Source: Calycina herbarum
Lineage: Eukaryota; Ascomycota; Leotiomycetes; Helotiales; Pezizellaceae
Assembly: GCA_001414485.1 (NCBI GenBank)
Contig: LLEY01000180.1
Span: forward strand, 55,369 to 119,368
Direction of reading: 5' to 3'
Length of the DNA: 64,000 nt
The translations under genes were made by a program, and so were the position numbers. The notes beneath the pieces were generated by a model. The model did no database searches. It was not told where the DNA came from and saw nothing but the letters and a program-made list of their open reading frames with translations. Below are positions 20,316-51,454 of this stretch, piece by piece (the first letter of the stretch is position 1; each line of letters opens with the position of its first letter).

Positions 20316-21014
20316 ACGTCATCCACAAGCGAGTGCAACACACAAGTGAATACAACACGGAATCGTACCACCCTAATAAAAATTATAATTAACTACCTAT
20401 AATAAACAAAATTGATTAAAACTACTCTAATTCCTCCTCTTTAGATATATTAATATCAATTTCATAGGTACGTATATTATGACTAGTATTGCCGTATCGT
20501 TTACAACGTCGTTCCCTCGGTCGGAGTCTAGTAGCTACCCCTCTCTCTTCATCCTCTTCCTGTTATATAGTACTCTAGATATTCTTCTAGGATAAAAGGT
20601 TCTGCCCCTCTTATAAAGTTAATGTTCCTCCTTAACAGACATGTGTCTTTCTAGCCCTTCGATACTTGCTTAGGGTTTTATTTGCCTCTCGAAGGTCCTA
20701 GACCTCTGCCTTTAATAATATAACCTGGTGTATTATCCTATATGCCCCTTTTGTAAATTAGTCAATTGCCTAGAAAATTAAAGTCGGCGAGCTATTTTGA
20801 TATATAGAAATACGGGATTTTAGGAATTCAGATTATAAAGTCGCTTTAATTAGGTTATTCAGGGTCTTTGAAACCTATGGAGGTAGGTTAATAGCTGATT
20901 TAGAGGGTGTTAGTATATATAGCTTAATATCTAGTAGAGATATTACACTTTCTAGATTAAATAGAACAAGCCTAGCTCCTTAGAAGCCCTCTTAAATATT
21001 TATTAGCGTTATAG

Positions 21015-21476
21015 TGTCACGAATCATGTGTCAGCACGTGACGAAGTGAAGTCCAGGCGACGCCCTGACAGGACAAGCACTATTGTAACCCTGGAAGAAA
21101 GAAAGGATTAGATGTAGTAGGACATATAATTCTAGGATCTTATTACAGTTATATCACGTGACTCGGTTAGGAGCAGTTAGGTAATAGAGTCCAGTTTTAA
21201 GGAGCCCTAGAAATGGAGTCAGACTCTATTTTCAGGACTCCTGCTAAGGAGGACTCTAACATAAACGAAGGTTCTATATAAGACTGGCACGTCTGCTATT
21301 TAGATAGGAGCTTCGTACTCAACTTTAGTTATTAATCTTATCACATTATTTAACATCTTTAATACAAGTAACGAGTTCACTTCTAAGTAAACAACCTAGC
21401 GCATCTATACTTCTTACCCACATACCAACTTTCGAGACTTAGTCATCTTTATTTAGTTCGTTTAAGTTTCGTTACA
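21015..21476 (+). repeat. 5' LTR of Gypsy element 1
   Basis: The LTR begins TGTCACGAATC and ends CGTTACA. It contains CACGTG at 21035-21040 and 21155-21160 and a TATA box (TATATAAG) at 21275-21282. It is the less mutated of the pair. Confidence 0.88.
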
Positions 21477-24400
21477 CTTTAAGCACCTGCTTAGAAGTTC
21501 AGTCGCCATAGCCCCAGCAACCCCTGCCGCAGCAGCTAGCCCGAATACTAGTCGAGTCAACGTCGCAGGAACATCTAGAAGTGCGACCAGAAGAACACCT
21601 ACTAGTACATAGTCAACTAGGAACGATAACAATATTAGTATACTAGACACGCCCGAGCCCTACAAGGTCGAAGCACTTAAGTCTATTAAAGTCAAGATGC
21701 TCGATACGTATTATAGGAAGCGAAAGGAACTTAACTCGTTCCTTCTCTAGATAGACATCTACTTTAACTTTAACTCCGACAAGTTTAAAGGCAATTATAA
21801 CTCACGAACCATCTTTGCTATCTCCTATCTTAAGGGATTAGCTTTAGAATAGGCTTAGTTATACTTAGAGGACTTCTTTAAGAATAAGGATAAAGATAGA
21901 AAGATAGAATTAACTAAGATTATGTTTAAATCTTAAAGAGGATTTAAAACAACTATTAGGAAAGTCTTTAGAGACTTTAATACAATTTAAACAGCTATAT
22001 ATAAGCTTTTAGAATTATACTAAACTAGATTAGTAATAGATTATACTAATAAATTCTAATATTATAAAACAAAATCAGGATAAGATACTATTACTCTTAT
22101 AAAACTCTTCTATAGAGGATTAAAGATATATATCTATAAGAAAATAGCTAAATAAAATATATAATTCTTAACTATTATAGGTATAATTAAGGAGGTTGTC
22201 TAGCTAGATAACCGCTTATACGAATTTAGAAAGAGTAACTCTAAGTATAGGGAAAAGAATAAAGGGTTAGGAAAGTAGAAGTACTCTTATACTAATAAAC
22301 ATAGTAAGGAGGTAAACGCTATATAGAAGAAAACCTTTCTAAAGAAAGAAGGACTTTCCTAAAAGAAGCGAGATCGTTGATATAAGTAGAACTTATACTA
22401 TAATTATAGCTAACTAGGTTATAGAACAAATAAGTATAGTAAGAAGAAAGACTCTAAGGGAAAGAAACAAATTAATACTACTATTTAATAATAGGTAGCT
22501 TTAACTAATCGTATTAAACTTATAGATAAGGAGCTTAAAGTATAAGAATATAGAACCTAGATTAAAAATAATAAAGAAATTAGTAGTATATAAGATACTA
22601 ATAATAATAGAGATCTACTTCTTAAAGAATATTATAATATATAATTAGTAATAAATTCTAAGTAACCTCTTTAAATAGAATATAAATTACTACTATCGAC
22701 TAGTTTATTAAAGATATTAGATTCATCTTCTAGTTTAAAAGGAGAAATAAAGAATAAGGACCTTAAAGTTAAAGAAACTTAGGTTTTCCTTAAAACCTTT
22801 AAATAAGGAAATCGATAAGCATATATCGATAACTAGAAACTAGACTTCTAGAGTTCTTATATAACATAAGAGGTTAACCTAACCATCTTAACAACATATA
22901 CAGTTATAAGTAATAACTCTAAAACAATAACTCTAGTTAGCCTAATTACTAGACAGAAAACTATTAAAGAAAAACCAGAATAGAAACGTTAACCAGTTAA
23001 AAAACCTAGCTACCCTAAAGTAGGGGATATATAGAGAATATATAATATCTCAGATAAGAACAGTACATAGACATAGCAAGTTCTAACAGGATTTATAAGA
23101 CGAATTAAAACCCCTTTCCTTAGAACACTACTAGAAGATATAATACTAAAGGAATTTAAGTAATATATCGTAGTTACGTTAATTAGAAATAATAGGTTAG
23201 TATTTAGAAAACATAACTTATAACAACTATTTAGTATATTATTCTAGGAACAAAGAGAGCTTAATATAACTAGATAGGCTAAGATAGAACTAGAAGAATT
23301 ATACTATCTATTAATAGGAGAACTATAGTTTATAGAAACAGTTTAGGAAATAATAGTATAATAGATATAATATAAACTAAGTCCGACTTTATACTAGTTA
23401 TTATAAAAGCGGTTTAAAGGATTATTACTAGAGCCTACTAGAATAGTAGAATATTATTAGATATATAAGGTAGTATTATTAGATAAAGAAGGAGTAGTAT
23501 TCTTTCCTTAGTCCTAGATTAAGGCTATTAGAGAAAAGAATTTAAGAGACTATATATTTAAAGTTTACTATATAAAACTAGAGATAAGTATACTAGAAGC
23601 TACTTTAGATTATCTTTATATAAGAGAACTTTAGTCTATAAAAACTATTTTAGAAACTAGTTATAAATAGATCTAATATAACTATAAACAAATACTAAAA
23701 CGATTTATAAGAGAAATTCCTAAAACTATAAGAATCGTAGAATATAGATTAGTATATAAGGTAGTATATACTAATAAGGAAAGAGTAAGATTCTTTCTAT
23801 AGTATAAGAATAAGAAGAGAAAGAGTTATAATTAAGAGAATTAATCTTTTAAAGTCTAATATATTAAAGCAAAGTTAAATACTACGTTAAAAGAAAGACA
23901 GTTAATAATAACTATAGAAATATAAGATAAAAAAGTTATAAGTTATAATAGACTTAGGAGTAATAAGCAACTTTATTTCCCTAATAGCTTAAGAGAAGCT
24001 AAACGTTCTAATTAAAGAGATAAGACTATATTAACTAAAAGTAGTTAATAAAATAGATATTATATATTAAAATAGAATTATTAATTAGTAAACTATTCTA
24101 ATAAAAATTAATATTAAAGGATACTATTTAGATATATAATTCGATATTATTAAAATAGGAAGTAAGGAAGTAATACTTAGTATATTATAGATTTAGAAAC
24201 ATAATCTAGAAATCGACTAGAAGGCTAGAACGTTAACCTTTAGCTAATATAAATACATAGGTTCGTATTTATAACTCTAAGGCTAGAACAAGGTTAGTAC
24301 TACCTCTTCTAAAGCACTAGAATACCTTGCCTAGGGTCCTCCATAGGTTAGTAAGACGGCTAATAACGAAATACCTATGTAGTACAGAGAATTTAGAGCT

Positions 24401-27209
24401 TTGTTTAAAAACCTAGAAGACTTATAAGCCTTATTAGAACATCGCTTATAAGATTATAAGATTAAATTAAAAAAGGATTATCACCTCTTAAAGTAGAAGC
24501 TTTAGTTATATAACTAGAAAAGCCTATAGAGAATAGAAAGTTATATAAAAGAGGGTATTAAGAAGGGATATATTAGAAGATCTAAGTTACTAATTACCTT
24601 AAACATACTTATTATTAAGAAGAAAGACGATCTAGATAGAAGAGTATATATTAACTACTAAGAAGTAAATCATACTATAGTTAAGGACGCTTATCTACTA
24701 TTACCTAGCTAATACTTATAGGATAAGTTAGGCAAGGTAGTACGATTTACGAAACTAGATTAATAAAACGCTTATAGACTTATATAAATAAAAGTCAGAG
24801 ACGAATAGAAGACAGTATTTACCTTACTATTAAACCTCTATAAATACACAGTTATGCTATTTAGACTCTATAACGTACTAGCTATATGTTAAAGATAAAA
24901 TAATAATATTTTAAGAGATCTTCTAAGGATAATAGTAATTTATTACTTAGATAATATCCTAATCTTCTTAGAAAAAGAAGAGGAATATAAGAGATATATT
25001 AGAGAAGTTTTATAATAACTTATAAAAGTAAACTCTTAGTTAAAACTCTTAAAATACAAGTTCGAAGTAACTTAGACACTTTTCCTAGAATAGGTATTTA
25101 GCCTAAGAAAAATAGAAATAGATCTAGTAAAGATCTAAGACATCTTAAACTAGAAGTTATTAGAGAATATAAAAGATATATAGTCCTTTCTTAGATTTAT
25201 AAACTTTTACTATCTATTTATATAAGACTATATAAAGATTATTAAACTAATGTTAGTACTAGTTAAGAAAGCTATTAAGTTTATATAGAATAAATAAATA
25301 GAAAATACTTTTTAGAAAATTAAAGTAAAGTTTATAAAAAAACCTATTCTATATAATTTTAATATAGATAAACCTAGTATAATTAAAATAGACGCCTTAG
25401 ATATATTAGTAGGTATAATTCACCTATAACTAAATAATAAGAGAAAACTTATACTTATTATATATTATTCTAAGATATTTAACCTAGTATAATAGAACTA
25501 TAGCATCTTCGATAAGGAACTACTTACTATAGTATTAGCTTTAGAATACTAGAGAATTTATTTATAGTTAGTAAAATATCTAGTTATAGTTTTATCTAAC
25601 TATAAGAACCTTAGAATATTTATAACTACTAAGGAACTTATAATAAGACGATTAGCTAGATAGTTAGAGATATTAGAAGGATTTAATATTATTATTCGAT
25701 ATATAAAAGGAACGTCGAATACTTGAGCTAATACTCTTAGCTAGAAACCTAGATACGAGGGAAATAAGAAGTATAAAAAGATTATAATCTTAAAAACCCT
25801 TGAGAATAGAGATTTAGTACCTACTATATATAAGATAGTAGTAATAAATAATATCTAGATAGATAAGATTTAGAATATATATAAGGGTTATAACTAATAT
25901 ATAAAAGGGAAATTATAGGTTCCTAGCTTATATATAAAGGAATTTATATAAGAATACTATGCTATACCTGGTTACGGTTACTAAGGAATTCGTAGAACCC
26001 TCTAGAGGATAAGATAATACTACTATATTAATCGGTTATCTATAATAGTTAAGGAAGTGATAGTAGAATATAATACCTATACTAAGAATAAGGCTTCCTA
26101 CTATACTCCTTATAGATAGATAAACACTACTCTAATACTATAGATACCTTAGAAATTAATATCTATAGATTTTATTATTAAATTATTAAAATCTAAAGAT
26201 CTGATAATAGGAGTTAAATATAATATAATCCTAGTTATTATAAAAAGACTTACGAAGTATATGATTCTAATAGTATATATAGAGTTAAGTATAGCTAAGG
26301 AATTAGTATTCGCATTCCTTAAGAAAGTAGTCTTAAGACATAGACTACCTAAAGAGATACTCTTAGACAGAGATAAGCTCTTCACCTTGAAATTTTAGAT
26401 CGCTCTTATAGAACGATTAGAGGCGAAAAGAAAGCTTTCTATAGCTTTCTACTCTTAGATAAATAAAGGAAACGAATAGATAAATTAAGTAGTTAAAACA
26501 TACTTTTATTATTATATAAACTACTAGTAAGACAACTAGGTAGAACTACTACCCTTAGCACAGTTCGCTTATAACAGTTTAGTAACAGAAATAATACTTA
26601 TTACGCTATTCTATACTAATTTTAGGTATAAATTAATAGTATATTAAGAACTACTGTCTATAACTATCGATAACCAACTTACTCGTATTCACGTCTTAAA
26701 AATTAAGAGTCTATATAAAGAACTTATAGAAGACCTATAATTTATAGTAGAAAGAAACATATACTACTATAATAAACGACGTAGTTAGGAGCTAACGCTA
26801 AAAGAGAGGGATAAAGTCTACTTAGTATAAAAAAATATTAACATAAAAAGACTAAGTAATAAATTAGATTATAAAAAACTTAGACTATTTAAAATTAAAC
26901 AAGTTAAGAGACCTTTAAATTATAAATTAGTATTACTAAGGATAATAAACATCTACCTAATATTCTATATATCCTTACTCGAACTAGTATTACTAAGAGT
27001 ACTACTAGCCCTATTTATAGAAATTTAACTAGTTAATCTAAACGCTGAATATAAAGTCGAAAGGATTCTTAACTATAAGATTATTAGAGGTAAGATTAAG
27101 TATTTAATTAAATAGTTAGATTACTTATACTTAGAGAATATATAGAAACTAAAAAGCAACCTTAACTATTACTTAGGGAAACTTCAGGAGTTCTACTAAC
27201 GAAACCTAG

Positions 27210-27503
27210 GGCTGCCTAGAATTCAAGACTAGGGTTAGACAGGGATATATCATCAGAAAGTACCTGTTTAATAAAAGGAGCTATTTCAAAGGTAGGAAAC
27301 TAGGTAGAGGAGGATTTAGGAGGAGGACTCGAGGGAGGAGGACTCGGAGAAGTAATAAGAAACCGTTTATATATAGGACTAAAGAAGAATCGAGACATAG
27401 GTTTTCAAGGCCTAGGGACAGGAACGATAAGATAGCTAGAGCTATCGTAAGACCTTTTCAACTAAATATACTTAGAATAGCGAGAAGATTTAGAGAGCTC
27501 TAG
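27210..27503 (+). other. Arg-rich open frame between chromodomain and 3' LTR of element 1
   Basis: This 97-codon stretch has no stop in an element otherwise full of them. It reads through GRGGFRRRTRGRRTRR and IARAIVRPFQLNILRIARR. There is no ATG, so it could be a frame extension of pol, an accessory exon, or simply AGR-rich sequence that RIP cannot easily break. It is unrelated to the antisense frames at the same place in elements 2 and 3. Confidence 0.35.
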
Positions 27504-27710
27504 GAGACATCGACAGGATTGTTTACGATAAAAAGAACAAGTCTTAGCTAGACGTTACGCGGTTTCGATCTATATAGCAAGAGCTAAACGCTCTTTTTAT
27601 TTAGTATATAAGGAGGATATGTTTATATATAAAAGAAGGTCGATATCTTTCTAAAAGTATTTTAGGTTCGTATCCTAGCGTAGGGACACGCTAGGCTAAG
27701 AAGGGGATAG

Positions 27711-28172
27711 TATTACGAATTATATATCAGCACGTGACGAAGTAAAGTCCAGGCGACGCTCTAATAGAACAAGCACTATTATAACCCTAGAAGAAAGAAA
27801 GGATTAGATATAGTAGGATATATAATTCTAGGATCTTATTATAGTTATATTATATAACTTAGTTAAGAGCAGTTAAGTAATAGAGTCTAGTTTTAAGGAG
27901 CCCTGGAAATAGAGTCGGACTCTATTTTTAGGACTCCTACTAAGGAGAACTCTAATATAAACGAAGGTTCTATATAAGACTAGCACGTCTGCTATTTAGA
28001 TAGGAGCTTTATACTTAACTTTAGTTATTAATCTTATTATATTATTTAACATCTTTAATATAAGTAACGAGTTTACTTCTAAGTAAACAACCTAGCGTAT
28101 CTGTACTTCTTACCCGTATACCAACTTTCGAGACTTAGTCATCTTTGTTTAGTTCGTTTAAGTTTCGTTATA
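27711..28172 (+). repeat. 3' LTR of Gypsy element 1
   Basis: 462 bp, starting TATTACGAAT where the 5' copy reads TGTCACGAAT, and ending CGTTATA. It is followed by CATAG, the RIP-altered partner of the TATAG at 21010-21014. Confidence 0.88.
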
Positions 28173-28614
28173 CATAGCTTACTAGAAGGCAGTATAGAAG
28201 GCAGGTAAAAAGTCAGCTTTTATAATATATATAATATATCTCTATATTATATCTTTAATATACCGCTTATATACCTGCTTTAGTAGGCTAAAATAACCAA
28301 CGTCGAGAGGCTGAAGAAGGTAAGACGAATAAGGAGGTATATAGAGGGTAATAATATTATTCTCTTTATAATAAAGCTTAAAATCTATTAAGTAGTAGCT
28401 TTCGTAGCTGTCGAGGATAAGTAGATAGTATATACTAATTATCCGACCTCTAATATACTTATTAAAGTACTAAAGCTATTTAAGACCTCTTTTATTTATT
28501 ATCTAACTGTTATCGCTTATAATAATACGTCAGTCCTTTAGTAATTCACTATTTTTATACTATAGCACGAGGTAGTATTTACTAGCGACGATAATAAACA
28601 GGGGGACCGTATAG

Positions 28615-29061
28615 TATTACGAATCACGTTATATATAGTAAGTAGTTCAGACGGCGCTCTAATAGAACAAGGCACGATATCTAGGAAATAGAAGGTGACA
28701 CGGGAGGGAATTAGTAATATAAAAGGTATTTAGGTATTCTAGGATCTCACTGTTAGATAACCGTTGGTAGTTATATAATAGATCCCCTCGGATCCCTTAG
28801 AGGATCTAGAGGGATCTAGGGATCTAGGCTTATATAAGGATCTAGATAGCGCGAGAGGGTCTATATATACCGGCACGTCTGCTATTAGATAGGAGCTTCG
28901 TGCTTAACTTTAGTTATTAATCTTATTATCTTATTTAATATCTTTAATATAAGTAATAAGTTTACTTCTAAGTAAATAACCTAGTATATCTATACTTCTT
29001 ATCTATATACTAACCTTCGAGACTTAGTTATCTTTGTTTAGTTTATTTAAGTTTTGTTATA
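28615..29061 (+). repeat. 5' LTR of Gypsy element 2
   Basis: 447 bp, begins TATTACGAATCACG and ends TTTTGTTATA. A TATATATA box lies at about 28870. The U3 contains the repeated motif GGATCCCTTAGAGGATCTAG, unlike element 1. Confidence 0.87.
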
Positions 29062-32000
29062 CTTTAAGCACCTGCTTAGAAGTTTAGTTGCTATAGCCCT
29101 AGCAACCCCCGTAGCAGCTAGCTTGAATACTAGCTAAGTCAACGTTGTAGGAATATCTAGAAGTGTAACTAGAAGAATACCTGTCGGTATATAGTTAACT
29201 AGGAACGACGATAATATTAGTATACTAGATGTCTCTAAGCTCTATAAGGTTGAAGTACTTAAGTCTATTAAAGTTAAGATACTAGATATATATTATAGGA
29301 AGCGAAAGGAACTCGACTTATTCCTTCTCTAAATAGACATCTACTCTAACTTTAATTCTAATAAGTTCGAAGGTAATTATAACTTACGAACTATCTTTAC
29401 TATCTCCTACCTTAGAGGATTAGTATTAGAATAGGCTTAGCTATACTTAGAGGACTTCTTTAAGAATAAGGACGAAGACGGAAAGATAGAATTAACTAAG
29501 ATTATGTTTAAATCTTAGAGAGGATTTAAGGTAACTATTAGGAAAGTTTTCGAAGACTTTAATATAATCTAAATAGCTATATATAAGCTTTTAGAATTAT
29601 ACTAGACTAGATTAGTAATAGATTACGCTAATAAATTCTAACGTTATAGGACGAAGTTAGGATAGGATGCTATTACTCTTATAGAACTCTTTTATAGAGG
29701 ATTAAAGATATATATCTATAAGGAAATAGCTAAGTAGAATATATAGTTCTTAACTATTATAGGTATAATAGAGGAAGTTGTCTAGTTAGATAATCGCCTA
29801 TATGAATTTAGAAAGAGTAACCCTAAGTATAGAGAAAAGAATAAAGGGTTAAGAAAGTAGAAGCACTCTTATACTAGTAAACATAGTAAGAAGGTAAACG
29901 CTATATAGAAGAAAACCTTTCTAAAGAAAGGAAGACTTTTCTAGGAGGAGTGAAATCGTCGACGTAAGTAGAACTTATATTATAACTATAGCCTTCTAGG
30001 TTATAGAGCAAATAAGTATAGTAAGAAGAAAGACTCTAAGAGAAAGAAATAAATTAATACTACTATTTAATAATAGGTAGCTTTAACTAATTATATTAAA
30101 CTTATAAATAAGGAGCTTAAAGTATAAAAATATAAAACCTAGATTAAAAATAATAAAGGAGTTAATAGTATATAAGATACTAATAATAATAGAGATCTAC
30201 TCCTTAAAGAATATTATAATATATAATTAGTAATAGAATCTAAGTAACCTCTTTAAGTAGAATACGAATTACTACTATTAACTAGTTCTTTAGAGACATT
30301 AGATTTATCTTCTAGTTTAGAAGAAGAAATAAGAAATAAAGACCTTAAAGTTAGAGAAACTTAGGCTTTTCTTAAAACCTTTAAATAAGGAAATTAATAA
30401 GTATATATTAATAACTAGAAACTAGATTTCTAAAGTTCTTATATAATATAAGAAGTTAACCTAACTATCTTAATAATATATATAGTTATAAGAAACAACT
30501 TTAAGATAATAACTCTAGTTAGTCTAATTACTAGGTAAGAAACGATTAAAGACAAAGAACTTATATATAACTAACTACGATTTAAGGGACCTACTTATCC
30601 TAAGGTTAGAGACGTGTAGAAGGTGTATAATATTTTAGAAGAAACTAGTATATAGACGTAGTAAGTCTTAACAGGATTTAAGAGGCGAATCAAAACCCTA
30701 TTTTATAGAATAGTACCTAAAGACGTTATACTAAGGGAATTTAAATAATATATTATAGTTATATTAATTAGAAATAATAGGTTAGTATTTAAAAAATATA
30801 ACTTATAATAATTGTTTAGTATACTATTCTAGGAATAAAGAGAGCTTAATATAACTAGATAGGCTAAAACGGAACTAGAAGAATTATACTTTCTATTAAT
30901 AGGAGAACTATAGTTTATAGAAACAGTTTAGGAAACATTAGTATAATAGATATAATATAAACTAAGTCTAACTTTAGACTAGTTATTATAAAAACAGTTT
31001 AAAGGAATATTACTAGAATCTACTAGAATAGTAGAATATTATTAGATATATAAAGTAGTATCTTTAAATAAAGAAAGAGTAGTATTCTTTCCTTAGTCTT
31101 AGATTTAAGCTATTAAGGAAAAGAATTTAAGAGATTATATATTTAAGGTTTATTATATAAAATTAGAGATAAGTATACTAGAAGCTACTTTAGATTATCT
31201 ATATATAAGAGAACTATAGTCTATAGAAGCTATTTTAGAAACTAGTTATAAATAGATCTAATATAATTATAAATAAATACTAAAACGATTTATAAAAGGA
31301 ATTCCTAAAACTATAGGAATTATAGAATATAGATTAGTATATAAGGTAGTATATACCGATAAGGAAAGAGTAAGATTCTTCCTATAGTATAAGGATAAGG
31401 AGAGGAAGAATTATAATTAAGAAAATCGATCTTTTAAAGTCTAATATATTAAAGCAAAGTTAAACGCTACTTTAGGAGAAAGATAGTTAGTAATAACTAT
31501 AGAAATAAGAGGGAAAAAGTTATAAGTTATAATAGACTTAGGAGTAATAAGCAACTTTATTTCTCTAATAGCTTAAGAGAAGCTAAACGTTCTAATTAAA
31601 GAGATAAGACTATATCGATTAGGAGTAGTTAATAAAATAGACGTTATATATTAAAATAGGATTATTAATTAATAAACTATTCTAATAGAAATTAATATTA
31701 AAGGATATTATTTAAATATATAATTCGATATTATTAAAATAGAAAGTAAGAAAGTAATACTTAGTATACTATAGATTTAGGAACATAATCTAGAAATCGA
31801 CTAGAAGGCTAGAACGATAACCTTTAGTTAATATAAATACGTAGGTTTATATTTATAACTTTAAGACTAGAACAAGGTTAGTACTATCTCTTCTAAAGTA
31901 CTAGGACACCTTGCCTAGGGTCCTCTATAGGTTAGTAAGATAGCTAATAATGAAATACCTATATAGTATAGAGAATTTAAGGCTTTGTTTAAAAACCTAG

Positions 32001-34849
32001 AAGACTTGTAAGCCTTATTAAAACATCGCTTATAAGATTATAAGATTAAATTAAAAGAGGGTTATTATCTCTTAAAGTAGAAGCTTCAGTTATATAACTA
32101 GAAAAGTCTATAAAGAATAGAAAGTTATATAAATAAAGGTATTAAGAAGGGATATATTAGAAGATCTAAGTTATTAATTACCTTAAATATACTTATTATT
32201 AAGAAGAAAGACAACCTAGATAAGAGAGTATATATTAATTACTAAGAAGTAAATTATACTACAGTTAAGAACGCTTATCTGCTACTACCTAGCTAATACT
32301 TATAGGATAAGTTAGGTAAAGTAGTATAATTTATAAAACTAGATTAATAAAATACTTATAAACTTATATAAATAAAAGTTAGAGATGAATAAAAGATAGT
32401 ATTTACCTTACTATTAGGCCTTTATAAATATATAGTTATACTATTTAAACTCTATAATATACTAGCTATATGTTAGAGATAAAATAATAATATTTTAAGA
32501 GATCTTCTAAGAGTAATAGTAATCTATTACTTAGATAATATCTTAATCTTCTTAGAAAAAGAAGAAGAATATAAGGGATATATTAGAGAGGTTTTATAAC
32601 AACTTATAAAAGTAAACTCTTAGTTGAAACTCTTAAAATACGAGTTTAAAATAACTTAGATACTTTTCCTAGAATAGGTATTTAGTTTAGAGAAAATAGA
32701 AATAGATCTAGTAAAGATCTAAGATATCTTAAACTAGAAATTACTAGAGAATATAAAAGATATATAGTTCTTCCTTAGATTTATAAACTTTTACTATCTA
32801 TTTATATAAGACTATATAAAGATTAGTAAACTAATATTAGTACTAGTTAAGAAAGCTATTAAGTTTATATAGAATAAATAAGTAGAGAATACTTTTGAAA
32901 ATTAAAGTAAAGTTTATAAAGAAACCTATTCTATACGATTTCGATATAGATAAACCTAGTATAATTAAAATAGACGCTTTAGACATAGTAGTAGATACGA
33001 TTTACCTATAACTAAATAATAAAGGAAAACTTATACTTATTATATATTATTTTAAAATATTTAACCTAGTATAATAAAACTATAGTATCTTTAATAAAGA
33101 ACTACTTACTATAGTATTAGCTTTAGAATACTAGAGAATTTATTTATAGCTAGTAAAATACCTAGTTATAGTTTTATCTAACTATAAAAACCTTAAGACG
33201 TTTATAATAACTAAGGAGCTTATAATAAGATAATTAGCTAGGTAGTTAGAGATATTAGAAGGATTTAATATTATTATTTAGTATATAAAGAGAACGTTAA
33301 ATACTCGAGCTAATACTCTTAGCTAGAAACCTAGATATAAGAGAAATAAAGAGTATAAGAAGATTATAATCTTAAAAACTCTTAAGAATAGAGATTTAGT
33401 ACCTACTATATACGAAATAGTAGTAATAAATAATATCTAGATAGATAAGATTTAGAATATATATAAAGGTTATAACTAGTATATAAAAGGGAAATTATAG
33501 GTTCCTAGCTTATATATAAAGGAATTTATATAAGAATACTATACTACGCCTGCTTATAGCTATTAGAGAGTTTGTAGAACCCTCTAAAGAATAAGACAAT
33601 ACTACTATATTAATCGATTATCTATAATAGTTAAGAAAGTAATAGTAGAATATAATACCTATACTAGGAATAAGGCTTCCTACTATACTCCTTATAAATA
33701 GATAAACACTACTCTAATACTATAGATACCTTAGAAATTAATATCTATAGATTTTATTATTAAATTACTAAAATCTAAAGATCTGATAATAGGAGTTAAA
33801 TATAATTCTAGTACTATATATAGAATTAAGTATAGCTAAGGAATTAGTATTCGTATTCTTAAAAGAAGTAGTCTTAAGATATAGACTACTAAAAGAGATA
33901 ATCTTAGATAGAGATAAGCTCTTTACCTTAAAATTTTAGATTACTCTTATAAAATAATTAGGTACGAAAAGAAAGCTTTCTATAGCTTTTTACTCTTAAA
34001 TAAATAGAAGAAATAAATAGATAAATTAAGTAGTTAAAATATACCTTTGTTATTATATAAACTACTAGTAAAACAACTAGGTAGAACTATTGCCCTTAGT
34101 ATAGTTTGCTTATAATAGTTTAGTAATAGAAATAATACTTATTATACTATTCTATACTAACTTTAGATATGAATTAATAGTATATTAAGAACTACTATCT
34201 ATAACTGTTAATAACTAACTTACTTATATTTATATCTTAAAAATTAAGAGTCTATATAAGGAACTTATAAAAGACCTATAATTTATAGTAGAAAGAAACA
34301 CGTACTACTATAATAAACAACGTAGTTAGGAGCTAATACTAAAAGAGGGAGATAAAGTCTACTTAGTATAAAAAAATATTAATATAAAAAGACTAAGTAA
34401 TAAACTAGATTATAAAAAACTTAGACTATTTAAAATTAAATAAGTTAAGAGACCTTTAAATTATAAATTAGTACTACTAAAGATAATAAACATCTACCTA
34501 GTATTCTATATATTCTTACTTAAACTAGTACTACTAGGAGCACTACTAGCTCTAATTATAAAAATTTAACTAGTAAACCTAAACACTAAGTATAAAGTTA
34601 AGAGGATTCTTAACTATAAACTAGGTAGAAGATAAGTTAAGTATCTAATTAAATAGTTAGATTACCTATACTTAGAAAACACTTAAAAGCTAAGAAGTAA
34701 TCTTAACTATTACCTAGTAGAACTTTAGAAGTTCTATTAAGAAAACCTAGGTTTACCTATATTTCGTAGTCTAAAGGAAAAGCTACGAAGAAGGATAGGT
34801 TAAGGACTATCTTAGATTAGGAATTAGCAGGAATAGATAAGACTACTAG

Positions 34850-35130
34850 ATAGACAACCTCCGCCTCCCGCTACTCTTATTCCTCTCTTTCTTTCTCCTC
34901 CTTCTCTTTCTTTTCTACCTCTTTAGTAGTATTAAGTTTATTAAGAAAATAAAGTCCTTAATAAGACATTTTACGTCGCCTTTCTTTAAGAAAGGCCTTC
35001 TACTTTCGTAACTATAGAATCTTCGCTATCGCCTCCTCCTCTTCCCTATCTAGCTTCTCCTCTTATCTTTCGATAGAGGACTAGTCGCTAGTATAGGGAA
35101 CGTTCTTCTCTTAGGCATCATCGGTTCTAT
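34850..35130 (-). CDS. Antisense Lys/Glu-rich accessory frame of Gypsy element 2 (degraded)
   Basis: On the strand opposite to gag-pol, between the chromodomain and the 3' LTR, a frame reads EEKLDREEEEAIAKIL, then LRK, FLKERRRKM and TTKEVEKKEKEEKERE. A few TAG/TAA codons sit where Gln or Arg would be expected. The same order of motifs occurs in element 3 at 44390-44765, also antisense (AIAKVL, LLYARKQRI, TTKELERKEKEKEEEKK). Conservation of sequence, position and antisense direction between two otherwise diverged copies argues for a real element-borne gene. Its function is unknown; composition suggests a charged coiled coil. Confidence 0.5.
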
Positions 35131-35398
35131 TATATTTCAGCTTTAAGTAAACATATTTAGAATATTAAGAAGATTAGGAGGTATTAATAAAACATCTACG
35201 CTTTTAAGAAGCGTAGTAAGAACAGGGTAATATTTCGTTATAAACTATTTTAATACTTTTTATAAGAAGTATTTATTCTTCTTTCTTTTTTCATATAAAA
35301 TAAGACATAATAGAAAAGAAAGGATACTACTAGTACCCTAACCAAGTTTCTTAGTTTATACTTAAGTATAAGGATATACTAGGCTAAGAAGGGGATAG

Positions 35399-35845
35399 TA
35401 TTACAAATTACATTATATATAGTAAGTAGTCTAGACAGCGCTCTAATAAGACAAGGCACGATATCTAGGAAATAGAAGATAATACGAGAGAGAATTAATA
35501 ATATAAAAGGTATTTAGGTATTCTAGGATCTTACTATTAGATAACTGTTAATAGTTATATAATAGATCCCCTTAGATCCCTTAGAGGATCTAGAGAGATC
35601 TAGGGATCCAGGCTTATATAGGGATCTAGGTAGCGCGAGAGGGTCTATATATACCGGCACGTCTACTATTAGATAGGAGCTTCGTACTCAACTTTAGTTA
35701 TTAATCTTATTATCTTATTTAACATCTTTAATATAAGTAACGAGTTCACTTCTAAGTAAACAACCCGGCGCATCTATACTTCTTACCTACATACTAACCT
35801 TCGAGACTTAGTCATCTTTGTTTAGTTCGTTTGAGTTTCGTTATA
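35399..35845 (+). repeat. 3' LTR of Gypsy element 2
   Basis: 447 bp, preceded by the purine tract GCTAAGAAGGGGATAG and followed by TATAG. It differs from its 5' partner mainly by transitions. Confidence 0.87.
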
Positions 35846-36572
35846 TATAGCTATAGGAACTAATACTCTAAATAACTATAACCTATTCTCTATTGCCTTG
35901 CTAAGCTATTTTCAGCCTCCTACGTCTTTTAGTACTTATAACCACTATTCCTATTAAGATAATACCTATTATAAAGCCTATCTCGTTAAAGTTATAGATA
36001 TCTTTATCTTAGATACTATATTTAGTAGTTATATTTTAAACTAGTCGGAACTACGTAGAAATCGTATCAAGGTCTTTGTATTAGGCCCTCTAGTAATTAT
36101 ACTTCTAATAAAGACACATTTGTAAGACTTATTGTCGCTTTATAAAGTTAGAAGCCCAGTTCCTACTAACAGGTGCCGCGTTACGGTTATAGAGTAGTCG
36201 GTTCACCATATCTGTTACACTAGCAAGTCTAGGAGGAAATGCGCGTACATCGAGGTCGAGGATATATTAAACTATTACTAACTCTTCTAGATCTATAAGC
36301 TTTCGAGATTTAGGCGTAGAATCACGTCGTGAAGGTTGACCATGTCGTCGGCGACCTAGTGTACTATGATCGACCCCATAGATTGTAGCAGCGGCTCTAG
36401 CGCTTAAATCACGGTCACGATCCATAGCCTGACTAGCTAGGAGAATTTTTCTTTCGTCGCTTTTGTTTTGCATCGTTGGTTATGGTAGTATTCGAGTTTT
36501 AGTTAGGGTGACGCGTCTTGTGTAATTCCGTGTTGTATTCACTTGTGTGTTGCACTCGCTTGTGGATGACGT

Positions 36573-36681: not shown

Positions 36682-38763
36682 CGGCAATTGACACTTTTGC
36701 CCCCTAAATAATTAGAAATACCTAGAATATCCCCTAAAATCCTGATGTTTTGACAGAACTACCCCCTAAATCATACCCCCTAAATATAAGGGTATTCTAG
36801 TCAGAAAAGAGGGATATTTGAGTCATTAATTTAAGTAGTAAATACACTAAATATAAGTGAATTGACGCTAAGCTAGTACTTTAAAATGGACCGAATTTAA
36901 ACTTTAATATGTAACTTCAACTATTCTAGTTATTCTACTACTATCACCATCACTGTCACCACCAATATGCTCGCCCACAAGTATGTCAAAAGGGTGACCC
37001 GCCGTATAAAGGCTTCTGGGCTACGCTGTATAATTAAGAGATAACGAGAGAAACAAGATGAGGCTATTGCCAATTATGCCCTAACGGAGGAAGAGGAATT
37101 AAAGGTTGGTCGAGAGTGGAATACTGTTAAGGAGGCAAGAGAGAGGATTTACTTTTCGCTAACCGACCGCGATTTATCCTAGTATATTATAAAGTTAGAC
37201 GTACGAAGTTTGGTTTTAGATTGCAAAGATAAAACTTGCCCTTTCCATATTCGAGTATCCTAGATCGACCGCGCTGTCCTTTCAGCATATATTCTATACG
37301 AATGCCCCTCGTATACACATACTGACCACCGAGCTAAGAATAGCGTTTGATATATCCTCTATAATCACGGCGAAGCCATCGATCGAGATCACTCCTTTAA
37401 AGCTATAACGTTAATAAACAATGAGATATTGTATAGGAGAGGCCATAAAGTGCCTTCGCGACAGGCATATCGAGCGGTCGAAAAACAACGAAACGAGAGT
37501 GTAAAAGAGGAGGAGAAATCCTTTGTGCTCTTTCCCTACTACGTCGAGGAGCTTTAAAAGTTTGATCCTGATTACTACGTATATCTTTAAACCGACGAAA
37601 CCACTTAAGAGTTCGAAGGATTGTTTATCGCTCTAGGACCTCTTCGTAAAGCTGTCAGCTATATACGCCATTTTGGAGCGGTTGATGGTATACATACTCG
37701 GTCAAAGTATAAGATGGTACTCTATATTACTGTCTGTATTGATACCAACAATGAGATATTACTGATTTGTTGGGCTCTTATGCCGAGAGAGGGAGAGAAA
37801 GGTTGGAAGTAGTATTTTACTCATATGAAGCCTTTCCAACATTTCGTATAACATAGCCAGAGGGCGAAAAATGGGTGGTGATTAGTGATCGCCAAAAAGG
37901 ACTACGAAAGGAACTCCCTCAGGAACTTCCAAAAGCTTACGCTCTTGCATGTTGTCAACATATCGTAGATAATATCGCCTTTCGCTATGGTAAGGATGTA
38001 AGGAAGCTTTGGTGGAGGCTTTGTCGCTCAAAAGATGAAAGCGCTCGTACGGAAACTCTCTCTCAAATTGCGAAGTTCAAAAGCGATATAGTAGGAAGAA
38101 ACTCTCAGAGTATATCGACACTATCCCGATCGATATATATTTGGCATAGGCTACTGTCGATCGGCGTGGAAAGAGAATTGGTCCTACTCTTTAAGATCTT
38201 ATTTATATGCCAGGTAATACTGATTAGGAGCGACGAGATAATTGGCATAAGAAGAGGCAAAAGGCTCGTACAAAGAAGCCTACTTTTGGTCAACAAATGG
38301 AGGCAATTAGAGCGAGAAAGAAGAGGGATAAGGAGGTTGAATTTGAGGTTCAAGATAGAACTAAGGTTCAAGAAGGAATTGAGGCTCAAGGAGGAATTAC
38401 GGAAGGAGGAATTAAGGCTCAAGAGGGAATTACGGAAGAAGGAATTAAAAGCCGTAAGTGAAAGGGTCAAGAATATTGGGCTCAACCACCACCAAAATCC
38501 TCGAGAGTTGGTTTACGTAGTCGTAAGTAGGTTATACATGAGTTAGTTAATTTACTATATTCATTGATTTCTTAGTATATTAGTATAAGGAAACTGATGA
38601 AGAGAGAAAATGTATAAACTGACTTAAATATCCCTCTTTTCTGACTAGAATACCCTTATATTTAGGGGGTATGATTTAGGGGGTAGTTCTGTCAAAACAT
38701 CAGGATTTTAGGGGATATTCTAGGTATTTCTAATTATTTAGGGGATAAAAGTGTCAATTACCG
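36682..38763 (+). mobile_element. Mutator-like element (MULE) with 144 bp TIRs and 9 bp target duplication
   Basis: The element is 2082 bp. It starts CGGCAATTGACAC and ends in its inverted partner, with TIRs at 36682-36825 and 38620-38763 that are about 95 percent alike. The flanks are a perfect TATTTATAT repeat (36673-36681, 38764-38772), as expected for MULEs. Each TIR has four CCCCTAAA-type blocks. Internal coding runs on the plus strand. The element is less RIP-damaged than the Gypsy copies but not intact. Confidence 0.85.
36967..38546 (+). pseudogene. MULE transposase gene, broken
   Basis: From an ATG at 36967 (MLAHKYVKRVTRR) the frame runs with several stops to about 37850, then continues in another frame. 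The MULE domain is clear: FGAVDGIHTRSKYK near 37675 with the first Asp, VCIDTNNEILLICWALMP, then VVISDRQKGL near 37875 with the second Asp, and ALACCQHIVDN with the conserved C/H. A frameshift near 37830 and stops at Trp/Gln positions make it inactive. The 3' part (about 38330-38460) encodes a charged tail from short repeats of the type AAGGAGGAATTACGG. Confidence 0.75.
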
Positions 38764-43122: not shown

Positions 43123-43696
43123 ACGTAGTTTATTACTAAGTTAGTAATATTACTAAGTCGGTAATTTTTCCTTAGTATTAAATTTTAAATATTAATAAAT
43201 CAACTATAATATATTAAATTAACTAAATCTAATTAGAATCTAATAAACTAGATATATCTATAGCTTCTTAATAAGTTCGTACGTTATAACTAGCTTTTCT
43301 ATAGATTCTATAGTATTACCTAGATAGCTGCCTCTTCTTACGACTACCCCCCGCCGTACGTATATCGTATTACACCTGCTTATCTATATTCTTTTAAGCT
43401 ATAATATCTTAGGTATCCTCTACTATAAGTATACTCTCTTAATAGATACGAGCCTTTTTAGCCCTTCGGCGTTTACTTAGGGCTTTATTAGCTGCTTAAA
43501 GAGTATATACCTTAGTAGATAGTAGGGTTATCTTATAAGCTATTCGCTCTATACCTTTAGCTAATATAGTAACTGTCTTAAAGAGTAGAGTTAGCGAGCT
43601 CTCTTAGTAATAGGTAATCTGATTTCGAATAAGAGTTATTTATAAGAGAGCTTTAGTTAGGTTAGAAGGAGTCTAGGAGACCTAAGAGTAGCTGTT

Positions 43697-44121
43697 TATA
43701 ACGAAACTCAAGCGAACTAAACAAAGATAACTAAGTCTCGAAGGTTGGTATATAGTAAGAAGTATGAATACGCCGGGTTGTTTACTTAGAAGCGAACTCG
43801 TTACTTATATTAAAGATGTTAAATAAGATAATAAGATTAATAACTAAAGTTAAGCACGAAGCTCCTATCTAATAGCAGACGTGCTAGTCTTATATAGAAC
43901 CTTCGTTCCTCTAAGCAGCTAACTCGCTTATCGAGCTAGCGATCCAACGAGCTAGTTCGCCTAACGATCCAGCGGTCCGTTATATAATCAATATAATAAA
44001 ATCCTTAGATTACTTAGCTAACCTAACCGATCCTTATCTACTATAAGGTATTCCGATAGTGCTTAACCTGTTAGGACGCCGCCTGGTCTTCACTTATCAC
44101 GTGTATACGTAATTTGTAATA
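43697..44121 (-). repeat. 3' LTR of Gypsy element 3
   Basis: 425 bp; on the plus strand it starts TATAACGAAACTCAAG and ends TTTGTAATA. It is followed by the purine tract complement CTATCCCCTTCTTAGC. Confidence 0.87.
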
Positions 44122-44389
44122 CTATCCCCTTCTTAGCTTAGCGTGTCTCTACGCTTAAGTATAACCTAAGAAATATCGTTAGAAGGCTAGCAGCCTTCTT
44201 CCTTTTTTACTATACTACCTAATCGTTTAATAAAACGTACTAAGTATATTACTCTTAGAAAAGAAATTAACTTATCTAGAATAAAAATAGTACTCTATAC
44301 CCGATGTTTAAAAGCTAGTTTTATAAATAAATATATTACTTCTTAAGATAAAAGTCTAAATCGCTATAGTCGTTATACAAAGAACAGTA

Positions 44390-44765
44390 AGACTTACAAC
44401 GTTCGTAAGGTAAACCGTATACCAACTATTCAAGATTAGGAGTCTATAAATACTTAGATCTAACAACTAGAGGACGAGGCCGATAAGGCTATAGCGAAAG
44501 TCCTCTAGGTTAATAAGTAGAAGAAGCTGCTTTACGCCCGGAAGCAGAGAATAATAGTAGCTAGTCTTAACTTCCTTAAAGAGCTAGATACTACTAAAGA
44601 ATTAGAAAGAAAGGAAAAGGAGAAGGAGGAAGAAAAGAAGCAGATAGAAGAAGAGGCTGCTAAGCTAGCCGCCCTTCCTACGTCTAACGTTTCCGACCCT
44701 GCCCTCGCTCTAGGCCTCGACCTAGCCTTTCTTACGTCCTTTCCTACTAACTACACGATATAGGT
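44390..44765 (+). CDS. Antisense Lys/Glu-rich accessory frame of Gypsy element 3 (degraded)
   Basis: On the plus strand, opposite to this element's gag-pol, the frame reads LEDEADKAIAKVL, two Trp/Gln-type stops, then an unbroken 80-codon run at 44521-44763: LLYARKQRIIVASLNF, LKELDTTKELERKEKEKEEE, a KQIEEEAAKLAALP coil and a Pro/Leu-rich tail. It corresponds motif for motif to the antisense frame in element 2 at 34850-35130. No ATG is visible in the remaining frame. The product would be a charged coiled-coil protein of unknown role. Confidence 0.5.
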
Positions 44766-47700
44766 AGACTTAGGTTTTAACAGTAGAACTCTTAAAGTTC
44801 CTCCGAGTACTAGCTAATGTTTTTTCTAGGTTCCTAAGTATTTTCTAAATATAGGTAATCTAACTATTTTATTAAATATCTAACCTATCCTCTAATAAGT
44901 CTATAGTTAAGAATCCTCTTAACTTTATACTTAGTATTTAGGTTTACTAGTTAAATTTCTATAAGTAGAGCTAGTAGTACTCCTAGTAGTACTAGTTCGA
45001 GTAGGGATATATAGAATACTAGGTAGATGTTTATTATTCTTAATAGTACTAATTTATAATTTAAAGGTCCTTTAATACGTTTAATTTTAAATAGTCTAAG
45101 TTTTTTATAATCTAGTTTATTACTTAGTCTTTTCGTATTAATATTTTTTTATACTAAGTAGACTTTATCCCTCTCTTTTAGTATTAGCTTCTAACTACGT
45201 CGTTTATTATAGTAGTATACGTTTCTTTCTACTATAAATTACAGGTCCTCTATAAGTTCCTTATATAAGCTCTTAATTTTCAAGACCTAAACACGAGTAA
45301 GTTAGTTATTAATAGTCGTAGATAGTAGTTCTTAATACGCTATTAATTTATATCTAAAATTAATATAGAATAGTATAATAAGTGTTATTTCTATTACTAA
45401 ACTGTTATAAGCGAACTATGTTAAGGGCAGTAGTTCTACCTAGTTATCTTACTAGTAGTTTATATAATAATAAAAGTATGTTTTAACTACTTAATTCATC
45501 TATTTATTTCCTTTATTTGTTTAAGAGTAGAAAGCTATAGAAAGCTTTCTTTTTATACTTAATTATTCTATAAGAGTAATCTAAAATTTTAAGGTAAAGA
45601 GCTTATCTTTATTTAAGAGTATTTCTTTAGATAGTCTATATCTTAAGACTACTTCTCTAAGGAATATAAATACTAATTCCTTAGCTATACTTAACTCTAT
45701 ATATATTATTAGGATTATATATTTTATAAGTTATTTTATAATAACTAGGATCGTATTATATTTAACTCTTGTTATTAGATCTTTAGATTTTAGTAATTTA
45801 ATAATAAAATCTATAGATATTAATTTCTAAGGTATCTATAGTATTAGAGTAGTGTTTATCTGTTTATAAGGAGTATAGTAGGAAGCCTTATTCCTAGTAT
45901 AGGTATTATATTCTACTATTACTTCCTTAACTATTATAGATAACTAATTAATATAGTAGTATTATCTTATCTTTTATAGAGTTCTACGAATTCCTTAGTA
46001 ACTATAAGCGAGTATAGTATAGTATTCTTATATAAACTCCTTTATATATAAGCTAGGAACCTATAACTTCCTTTTTATATATTAGTTATAACCCTTATAT
46101 ATATCTTAAATCTTATCTATTTAGATGTTGTTTATTACTACTATCTTATATATAGTAGGTACTAAGTCTCTATTCTTAAGAGTTTTTAAGATTATAATCT
46201 TCTTATACTTCTTATTTCTCTTATATCTTAGTTTCTAGCTAAGAGTATTAGCTCGAGTATTCAACGTTCTCTTTATATATTAAATAATAATATCAAATCC
46301 TTCTAATATCTCTAACTATCTAGCTAATTGCTTTATTATAAGTTCCTTAGTAGTTATAAATGTCTTAAGGTTCTTATAGTTAGATAAAACTATAACTAGG
46401 TATTTTACTAACTATAAATAAATTCTCTAGTATTCTAAAGCTAATACTATAGTAAGTAATTCCTTATCGAAGATGCTATAGTTTTATTATACTAGGTTAA
46501 ATATCTTAGAATAATATATAATAGGTATAAGTTTTCCCTTATTATTTAGCTATAGGTAAACCGCACCTACTACTATATCTAAGACGTTTATTTCGATTAT
46601 ACTAGGCTTATCTATATTAAAATTATATAGAATAGGTTTTTCTATAAACTTTGCTTTAATTTTCTAAAAAGCATTCTCTACCTATTTATTCTATATAAAC
46701 TTAATAGCTTTTTTAACTAGTCTTAACATTAGTTTAGTAATCTTTATATAGTCTTAGATAAACAGATAGTAAAAGTTTATAAATCTAAAGAAGAACTATA
46801 TATCTTTTATATTCTCTAGTAACTTCTAGTTTAAGACGTTCTAGATCTTTGCTAAATCTATTTCTATTTTCTCTAAGCTAAATACCTATCTTAGGAAAAG
46901 GGTCTAAGTTACTCTAAACTCGTATTTTAAGAGTTTCAACTAAGAGTTTACTCTTATAAGTTATTATAAAACTTCTTTAATATATTCCTTATATTCTTCT
47001 TCTTTTTCTAAGAAGATTAATATATTATCTAGGTAATAGATTACTATTACTCCTAGAAGATCTTTTAAAATATTATTATTTTATCTCTAATATATAGCTA
47101 GTATATTATAGAGTCTAAATAGCATAACTATATACTTATAAAGGCCTGATAATAAGGTAAATACTATCTTCTATTTATCTCTAACTTTTATTTATATAAG
47201 TCTATAAGCGTTTTATTAATCTAGTTTCGTAAATCGTACTACTTTACCTAACTTATCTTATAAGTACTAGCTAGGTAGTAGTAGATAAGCGTTCTTAACT
47301 ATAGTATAATTTACTTCTTAGTAATTAATATATACTCTCTTATCTAGATCGTCTTTCTTCTTAATAATAAGTATGTTTAAGGTAATTAGTAACTTAGACT
47401 TTCTAATATATCTCTTCTTAATACCTTCCTTTATATAACTTTCTATCCTCTATAGGCTTTTCTAGTTATATAACTAAAGCTTCTACTTCGAGAGGTGATA
47501 ATCCTCTTTTAATTTAATCTTATAATCTTATAAGTAATGTTCTAGTAAAGCTTATAAGTCTTCTAGGTTTTTAAATAAAGCCTTAAATTCTCTATACTAT
47601 ATAGGTATTTCGTTATCAGCTGTCCTACTAACTTATAAAGGACCCTAGGCTAGGTGTCCTAGCATCTTAGAAAAGGTAGTACTAACCTCGTTCTAGCTTT

Positions 47701-49412
47701 ATAGTTATAATTATAAACCTATATAATTATATTAACTAAAGGTTATTATTTAAGCCTTTTAATTAATATCTAGATTATGTTCTCTAATCTATAGTATACT
47801 AAGTATTACTTCCTTATTTCCTATTTTAATAATATTAAATTATATATTTAAATAGTATCCTTTAATAGTAATCTTTATTAGAATAGTTTATTAATCAATA
47901 ATTCTATTCTAGTATATAACGTCTATTCTATTAACTACTCTTAAGTAGTATAGCTTTATACCTTTAATTAAGACGTTTAGCTTCTTCTAAGCTACTAGGG
48001 AAAGAAAATTGCTTATTACTTCTAAATTAATTAAGACTCGGAGTTCCTTTCCTCTTATCTTTACTATTACTATAAGTTGATTTTCTCTAGAGATAGCGTT
48101 TAATTCTCTAATTATTAGTTAATAGAGCTCTCTTTATACTAACTTCGTTTCTTAATCTATATTATATTCGTTTATCTCTTAGAAGATTATATTAAATAAT
48201 TTTCTATTTCTTAATTCTTAAAATATTACCTCGACTTTTCTAATTAAAATAACTATAGTATATTAGCCTCCTATTTCTAGTATAGCTTCTTTGTTATTAG
48301 ATAGCGTACCTAAAAAACTAGGTTTAGAGCGTCTTATAAAGTTGTTAGAACCCTACTATTACTATAAGCTAGTTTCTTCTTATATATCTATAACTATCTA
48401 AATATCTCCTATCTCAGATATACTAGATAGCTTATTAGATACTGCTTATTTTAGTCTAGGTTTTTTAAATTCAATGGTTTCCCTTCTATTAACAAGGCTT
48501 ACTAAAGTTATTCTATCCTATTTATTCTAAACTATTTTATAAGTAGTTAAAATAGTAGAGTTAATTCCTTAAATAGAATATAAGCTCTAAAAATCAGGTT
48601 TCTAGTTTTCTATATATACCTATCTATTCCCTCTTTTAAAGGTTTTAATAAATACCTATATTTCACCTTATTTAAGCTTATATATTCCTAGATCTACCTT
48701 TAATAAGTCGGATATTAATTCTAATAACTCTAATAAACTTATTAATAGTAGTAATTTATATTCTACCTAAAAGAGTAATTTATAATCTATTTCTAACTAT
48801 ATATTATAATATTCTTTAAGCAATAGATCTCTATTATTATTAGTATCCTATACCTTACTAACTTATAACTTAATTCCTTCGTTTAGCTATAAGTATATAA
48901 CACCTGTCGTTATATCTATAGCGTCTATCTTAATTTATATACTATAACCTCTAGCCTCGAGTTCTTTATCTATAAGTTCGATTTTTTCTAGCAAAGCTAC
49001 TTCTTTTTAGATAGTAGCGTTAGCTTATTTCCCTTTAGAGTCTTTCTTCTTACTATACTTATTTACTCTATAGCTAGGAAGACTATAGTTATAATATAAG
49101 TTCTACTTACGTCGACGATTTCACTCTTTCTAAGATAGTCCTCCTCTCTAAGAGTTTTCTTTCTTAGATTCCTTCTCTAAAACCTATGATTTCTAAGTAG
49201 TATCGATTTCTATAAGGTCTCTATAATCTTTTCATCTACCCTTCCTATATTAGTAACTATAACTTCCTTTCTTCTCTAGATTCCTTTTATAAATATAGTT
49301 ATTAATCCTAATTATATTATTTATTAATTTATTTAATATATCTAGAAAATCCTCTTATACGAGTTTATCCTTTATATTATCTTTAAGTCTACGATAGAAT
49401 TGTTTATATAAT

Positions 49413-49741
49413 TGTTACGGACCTGGCCACCGCCGAGCACGTGACTCGCGTACGGCTGCTCGCCGGCGTCCGTAAAGCCTGCTATTCCTAGCCTGGCCTA
49501 GAACCATTCCTACCTAGGCCAGGAACCATTTCTACAAACGGATCGACATTTCTATAACTTATCGATTCCTTAGCTATCTCTATATTATAGGACCTCTAGA
49601 AGTCTCCTCTTTCCTTCTCTTCTCTTCTATAGCTTTAGACCTTCAATTGAACTACCTCTTACTTCTCTGATTATCCGCTACACCTGTGTATACTATAGGT
49701 AAGGATAACTACCAGAGGGCTAGCAGATTAGGTTTGTCACA
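49413..49741. repeat. Solo LTR of another retrotransposon family inside Gypsy element 3
   Basis: 329 bp from TGTTACGGACC to TTTGTCACA, flanked by a perfect ATAAT duplication (49408-49412 and 49742-49746). It is clearly more GC-rich than the surrounding RIP-mutated gag and keeps CpA/CpG sites, including CACGTG at 49438-49443. It therefore arrived later and escaped most mutation. No internal region remains, as expected after LTR-LTR recombination. Confidence 0.8.
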
Positions 49742-50292
49742 ATAATACTTCGTCGTTCTATCCTATCTATATAAAGTACTATTAAAATTATAAGGCATAT
49801 TTAGCAGCTAACCCCTTTTACCTAAGTATATATAAAGCTCTAACTACCTTCTTTTTTATATTAACATCCTTAAAAGCCTAGTTAATTCTATCTCTAAACT
49901 CTTAAACATTTCTAAACAAATCCCTCGTCTTCTTAAACATTTAAAGAGAGACTTTTCCTTCAACTATTTTATTTACCTAGTAATCCTCTAAGTATAGTTC
50001 TAACTAGTTATAAGCTACCTCTTTAAGACAGGTAGACAACTATATAACCTAGTTAGTTTTATTTCTAAACTAAGTATAATAAAAGTTTAAGTAAAGAGAA
50101 GCTTTTATTAAGAACTTAGCTAGTTTCTTAGGCAAGCTATTAAACAGCTTTAGAAGAGGAAGTTTCACTTCCTCTCAAAGAGTAGTAACTAGTATAACTA
50201 GGGGGTCTACAGCTGGCTTTAGTAGGGTGGTTCTCGGAGTAGAAGAGGTTGCTAACATAGTAGCGATCTTACTTCTAAGTAGGTGCTTAAAG

Positions 50293-50717
50293 TATAACGA
50301 AACTTAAGTAAACTAAACAAAGATAACTAAGTCTCGAAGGTTAGTATATAGTAAGAAGTATAAATATACTAGGTTGTTTACTTAGAAGCGAACTCGTTAC
50401 TTATATCAAAGATATTAAATAAGATAATAAGATTAATAACTAAAGTTAAGTACGAAGCTTCTATCTAATAGCAGACGTGCTAGTCTTATATAGAACCTTC
50501 GTTCCTCTAAGCAGCTAACTCGCTCGTTAAGCTGGCGATCCAACGAGCTAGTTCGTCTAGCGATCTAGCGGTCCGTTATGTGATTAATATAATAAAATCC
50601 TTAGATTGCTTAGCTAACCTAACCGATCCTTATCTACTATAAGGTATTCCGATAGTGCTTAACCTGTTAGGACGCCGCCTGGTCTTCACTTATCACGTGT
50701 ACACGTGATTCGTAACA
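50293..50717 (-). repeat. 5' LTR of Gypsy element 3
   Basis: 425 bp; on the plus strand from TATAACGAAACTTAAG to GATTCGTAACA, followed by CTGTT. It contains two CACGTG motifs at 50694-50699 and 50702-50707. Its minus-strand R/U5 matches elements 1 and 2. Confidence 0.87.
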
Positions 50718-51431: not shown

Positions 51432-51454
51432 TATTAGATTCGATTTAAAAATAA

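Follow-up and report, generated by a model that had tools for sequence, protein, structure and literature searches.

The window analysed here is a stretch of 64,000 nt from the fungus Calycina herbarum (Helotiales; GenBank assembly GCA_001414485.1, contig LLEY01000180.1, positions 55,369 to 119,368). It contains three complete long terminal repeat (LTR) retrotransposons, referred to as E1, E2 and E3, and this analysis concerns a reading frame that lies near their 3' ends, on the strand opposite to gag-pol. A first-pass annotation of the window had proposed that this frame is an extra gene encoded by the elements. We consider it near certain that it is a protein-coding gene, based on its constant place, the existence of open copies with little damage from repeat-induced point mutation (RIP), matches to database proteins and mostly constrained substitutions.

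The elements and their antisense frames

Element boundaries were defined by LTR alignment and examination of the flanks, and paired LTRs and 5-bp target duplications were found for all three elements. E1 (21015-28172, plus strand) has LTRs at 21015-21476 and 27711-28172 that are 90.4 % identical, and its target duplications (21010-21014 and 28173-28177) differ at one base. E2, a complete chromovirus (28615-35845, plus strand), has LTRs at 28615-29061 and 35399-35845 that are 90.0 % identical, with target duplications at 28610-28614 and 35846-35850. E3 (43697-50717, minus strand) has LTRs at 50293-50717 and 43697-44121 that are 93.2 % identical, with target duplications at 50718-50722 and 43692-43696. 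E2 and E3 are thus in opposite orientations, as reported in the first-pass annotation, and alignment of the U3 regions and LTRs confirmed that their U3 regions differ. A chromodomain was identified at the end of pol in L057, a relative of E2 located elsewhere in the genome (PF00385, 37.1 bits; cutoff 25.1). The PF00385 scan was of L057 only, and the chromodomain assignment for E1, E2 and E3 is based on alignment of their pol ends with copies such as L057.

The antisense frame was located using a profile of 193 positions built from an alignment (A4) of 37 database proteins that includes no sequence from the window. In E2, the profile matches 34724-35293 on the minus strand (profile positions 6-188, 117 bits) and in E3 it matches 44221-44808 on the plus strand (profile positions 4-192, 126 bits). 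These frames are broken by RIP-like decay, and include 15 and 7 stops, respectively. The section originally singled out in E2 (34850-35130, minus strand) is, on translation, mainly the coiled-coil; its antisense location was correct but its span is only part of the profile match. The ordered motifs said to be shared by the two elements are present opposite gag-pol in the translations, namely AIAKIL and TTKEVEKKEKE in E2, and AIAKVL and TTKELERKEKE in E3. In E1, which the first-pass annotation did not include, only the N-terminal and cysteine part is matched (27435-27605, minus strand; profile positions 7-63, 24.5 bits, E 4.6e-7). A possible conserved C-terminal tail in the same reading frame (27177-27239, minus strand) was recognised by eye and scores -3.9 bits, which is not significant alone. 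The next-best place in the window scores 4.2 bits (E 0.73) and is the cysteine part of a host gene (1611-2351, minus strand) that has a Zn2Cys6 domain (PF00172, 24.8 bits; cutoff 21). In the reversed window, the profile reaches no more than 1.2 bits.

The E2 and E3 frames were also compared directly. Their Smith-Waterman score is 222, and 500 codon shuffles gave a mean of 35.9 (sd 6.3) and a maximum of 61, so the similarity of the proteins is well above chance. At the DNA level, similarity in this region is patchy, the best pieces being 70 and 88 nt long with 73-74 % identity, and none of the long repeats in the window spans both antisense regions. The coil is of low complexity, and two other E2/E3 frames also score highly (173 and 167), as might be expected if the resemblance were an artefact of chance or composition in RIP-damaged DNA. 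However, high scores in those frames are expected from complementary low-complexity sequence and the antisense frame scores highest. The database profile with its reversed-window control, the shuffles and the open copies described below all contradict an artefact, and we give this explanation almost no weight.

Copies in the genome

The source genome (68.8 Mb in 379 contigs) was searched with three protein queries. Each search scored 150 places, from 680, 718 and 536 first-look candidates, respectively, and copy numbers are therefore lower bounds. After leaving out L001 and L009, which are the window itself, 11 loci that repeat a place already counted, and E1, there were 58 distinct copies, comprising 56 loci together with E2 and E3. 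These form 13 clusters at a transversion distance of 0.03 and eight at 0.06.

Two copies, L057 (C169) and L039 (C367), are stop-free across the whole match, and these are the only stop-free rows among the 150 scored places of one genome search. L057 has a frame of 215 aa and differs from E2 by 15 transversions in 178 codons, while L039 has a frame of 208 aa and differs from E3 by 3 transversions in 183 codons. Hence, both subfamilies in the window have a naturally open relative, and open copies with low RIP do exist; their absence would have counted against a gene. Across the 58 copies there are 483 stops in the antisense frame and 556 to 1254 in each of the other five frames, and stop-free copies occur only in the antisense frame.

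Special sparing of the antisense gene from RIP was considered and is unsupported, as only 15 of 44 copies have a lower TA/AT ratio in this gene than in pol. The RIP substrate index is higher in the antisense gene than in pol in 39 of the 44. L039 exhibits a marked contrast, with a strongly RIP-like pol (positions 1-1400, GC content about 0.23-0.34) and a GC content of about 0.39-0.54 in the antisense gene and LTR (1400-2600), but this is not a rule across copies.

The position of the frame was examined in 44 loci, those shorter than 2300 nt being excluded. In all 44, which have enough flank, pol is found on the opposite strand beyond the end of the frame, and an LTR match is reached 91-114 nt past the start of the profile match, with a median of 102. 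As all of these loci were chosen for containing the antisense frame, they support its constant place but not its prevalence. If its internal stops are read through, the pol frame of L039 extends 140 nt into the antisense frame. The antisense gene is about 200 codons long, lies tail-to-tail with pol and has its start roughly 100 nt from the 3' LTR.

RIP makes C-to-T changes. As these are transitions, transversions provide a cleaner signal of selection. Transversions at codon positions 1, 2 and 3 were 0.231, 0.172 and 0.270 in 966 distant pairs, and 0.094, 0.078 and 0.217 in 35 closer pairs. The ratio of non-synonymous to synonymous substitution (dN/dS) calculated by NG86 for the antisense frame was 0.19-0.47 in eight pairs and was the lowest of the six frames in all eight. 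For the pair L039 and L056, it was 0.26, with a dS of 0.93. Some copies occur in more than one pair, so that the pairs are not independent. Some results weigh against constraint. The E2-E3 pair itself has a dN/dS of 0.57, YN00 gave values of 0.34-1.03 with three failures in 14 pairs, several maximum likelihood (ML) dS values were saturated (using an experimental Biopython module), and the fourfold-site test points either way. Overall, the substitution pattern mostly indicates constraint. The purifying selection anticipated for this frame is supported by the transversions and by NG86, while the YN00, ML and fourfold-site tests are mixed.

The same data bear on whether the gene might instead be on the sense strand, in the Ser-rich frame opposite the coil. 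This frame shares third positions with the antisense frame, yields NG86 dN/dS values of 0.30-0.72 in the eight pairs and has an uninterrupted stretch of 166 aa in L057. However, its dN/dS exceeds that of the antisense frame in every one of the eight pairs, it includes 673 stops in the 58 copies (versus 483) with no copy stop-free, and in L039 it is interrupted at 93 aa. In addition, the database proteins correspond to the antisense product, and a sense-strand gene is very unlikely. It is somewhat less improbable, though still a minor candidate, that the antisense transcript itself is what matters, via pairing with gag-pol RNA, small RNAs or silencing, with the protein secondary. The 140-nt overlap with pol in L039 would suit such a role, and double-stranded RNA is raised as a possibility in passages of a review (PMC7264820), but conservation at the protein level, including that of the cysteines, and the low dN/dS of the frame would be left unexplained.

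The protein family and its zinc-cluster likeness

Database relatives were recovered when the open L039 protein was used as the query; the E3 coil piece alone found no match at E <= 0.01. There were 54 relatives at E <= 0.001, most of them hypothetical proteins. Two are named Zn(2)-C6 in UniProt, and one (P0054) is listed by JGI as a 'predicted transcriptional regulator'. Alignment A4 includes 37 of the 54, the other 17, mostly short or partial, being omitted by choice. The family has an N-terminal helix, six cysteines with GAL4-type spacing, a long helix that is partly rich in Glu and Lys, and a tail that is conserved.

The six cysteines are at least 90 % conserved across the 37 members of A4. 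Their spacing conforms to the GAL4 type in 24 of the 37 under a strict definition and in 30 under a relaxed one, which was found in 0 of 7400 shuffles, and in 21 of the 24 strict-spacing members, two or more basic residues lie between the second cysteine and the third. Zn_clus was the most frequent Pfam match, reaching E <= 0.1 in 18 of the 37, but none of the 37 reaches the Pfam gathering score for PF00172 (21 bits), the best being 17.9 bits. The full PROSITE-like Zn2Cys6 pattern fits none of the 37. No match at a curated cutoff was found among the antisense proteins scanned, either with Pfam (best per family among the 37) or with NCBIfam (six proteins). The top sequence match in the PDB is GAL4, with the cysteines in register (E 0.35).

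A structure model of a family protein has a predicted local distance difference test (pLDDT) score of 84; a first model (11 sequences, pLDDT 65) was not used in the fold search. The VIA second look at structure matches gave nine rows, with weak scores, all of them fungal zinc-cluster DNA-binding domains. The family resembles the GAL4-type Zn2Cys6 domain (PF00172) in its six-cysteine spacing, in having basic residues between cysteines two and three and in the following helix. It differs in falling below the Pfam cutoff, in its weak structural scores, in being encoded antisense in a retrotransposon and in that the downstream regulatory domain was not seen in the antisense family.

These features are relevant to what the protein might do. 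It is possible, though distinctly less probable than the regulatory role set out below, that it is a transposition helper involved in nuclear import of the pre-integration complex, choice of integration site or RNA binding. The same conservation evidence (profile, dN/dS and constant place) is compatible with a helper, and passages of a review (PMC7264820) propose regulatory or accessory roles for such proteins and mention nuclear localisation of a plant one. However, the spacing of the cysteines points to zinc-cluster DNA-binding domains, as do the weak structural matches. The retroviral zinc knuckle of nucleocapsid proteins (C-x2-C-x4-H-x4-C) fits 0 of the 37, and matches of the L039 protein to HIV nucleocapsid are weak (E 0.6-1).

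Known antisense genes and a possible regulatory role

An antisense gene of this type is already known. Zhao et al. in 2011 reportedly described such a gene, brtn, from the Boty-like Ty3/gypsy elements that Botrytis cinerea carries. According to passages in PMC8365987, PMC7264820 and PMC4227169, brtn lies between pol and the 3' LTR of Boty, and a Monilinia transcript matching a truncated Pol and BRTN is mentioned in part of PMC5987419. From these accounts, Boty and the window elements are both of the Ty3/gypsy type with a chromodomain and an antisense gene between pol and the 3' LTR. The host of Boty also belongs to the Helotiales, as do the hosts of most named relatives of the antisense family. 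The window gene is assigned to this kind by place and strand only, and no Botrytis protein is named among the 54 database hits. Among the papers listed by searches of the open PMC literature, we recognised none on a Zn2Cys6-like antisense gene of fungal elements, though Zhao 2011 may describe one. Additional antisense open reading frames are listed for plant LTR retrotransposons (Grande gene23, RIRE2, Retand and PvRetro13) in parts of PMC7264820, where the function of antisense accessory genes of LTR retrotransposons is said to be unknown. The plant examples, compared here by description, differ in belonging to another host kingdom.

The zinc-cluster-like part and a subfamily without the coil, represented by E1, are additions to the known brtn kind. 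The N-terminal and cysteine part was matched on the antisense strand in all six E1-type loci, including E1. In the antisense translations of E1 and three relatives, a Pro/Ser-rich stretch replaces the coil and is followed by a family-like tail, for which the profile match is not significant. The 3' arrangement of E1 was found in at least 40 places, E1 included, with 85-100 % identity (every place scored, from 197 candidates), indicating that the coil-less subfamily has multiplied. It provides a natural variant for comparison.

The reading that we favour, with a probability of roughly 0.55, is that the element encodes, in antisense, a nuclear regulator that binds DNA. The antisense transcript would start in or beside the 3' LTR, and the protein may dimerise via the long helix, enter the nucleus and bind DNA through the cysteine cluster. 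The likeliest target would be the element's own LTR or leader, where binding might adjust transcription (or integration) of the element. The overlap with pol could also allow the antisense and gag-pol transcripts to pair. A comparable case is HBZ, a basic leucine zipper (bZIP) protein of the retrovirus HTLV-1 (human T-cell leukaemia virus type 1), which is an antisense factor that adjusts transcription of the virus. HBZ is described in part of PMC7264820 as having an antisense promoter in the 3' LTR. The proposed likeness, an antisense factor produced from the 3' LTR, is a functional comparison and homology is not claimed. The GAL4-like cysteine cluster and long helix make the function of the antisense gene concretely and cheaply testable. 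If binding of zinc and of the element's own LTR proved true, retroviruses and fungal elements would each have acquired antisense regulators independently.

A candidate binding site for such a regulator is a 16-nt inverted repeat in the interval between the antisense start and the 3' LTR, at 27677-27692 in E1, 35365-35380 in E2 and 44140-44155 in E3. Among the 44 loci and E1, E2 and E3, a RIP-tolerant pattern is present in 47 of 47, the strict pattern in 26 and perfect arms in 31. In E2, RIP-like changes in both arms preserve complementarity. The RIP-tolerant pattern occurs seven times in the 14,389 nt of E1 and E2. As it was derived from these same copies, it is a lead and not a test. A more specific proposal is that a clade of fungal chromoviruses encodes an antisense GAL4-like regulator that acts on the LTR or inverted repeat, an independent counterpart of HBZ, and that the coil-less E1 version, poor in dimerisation, competes over shared regulatory sites. 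This is speculative and we consider it unlikely as a whole. Palindromes resembling TCACGTGA occur repeatedly in low-RIP copies, both close to the start of the LTR and within U3, and may be sites for host factors.

Further features were noted in the window. A tandem array of 29/58-bp units (51451-51668) adjoins the 5' end of E3, and a DDE_1 transposase (PF03184, 52.5 bits) is represented by an open fragment at 52659-52919 on the minus strand. An inverted repeat of 144 nt, 97 % complementary, is found at 36682-36825 and 38620-38763, 1.8 kb apart, and possibly represents the ends of a DNA transposon.
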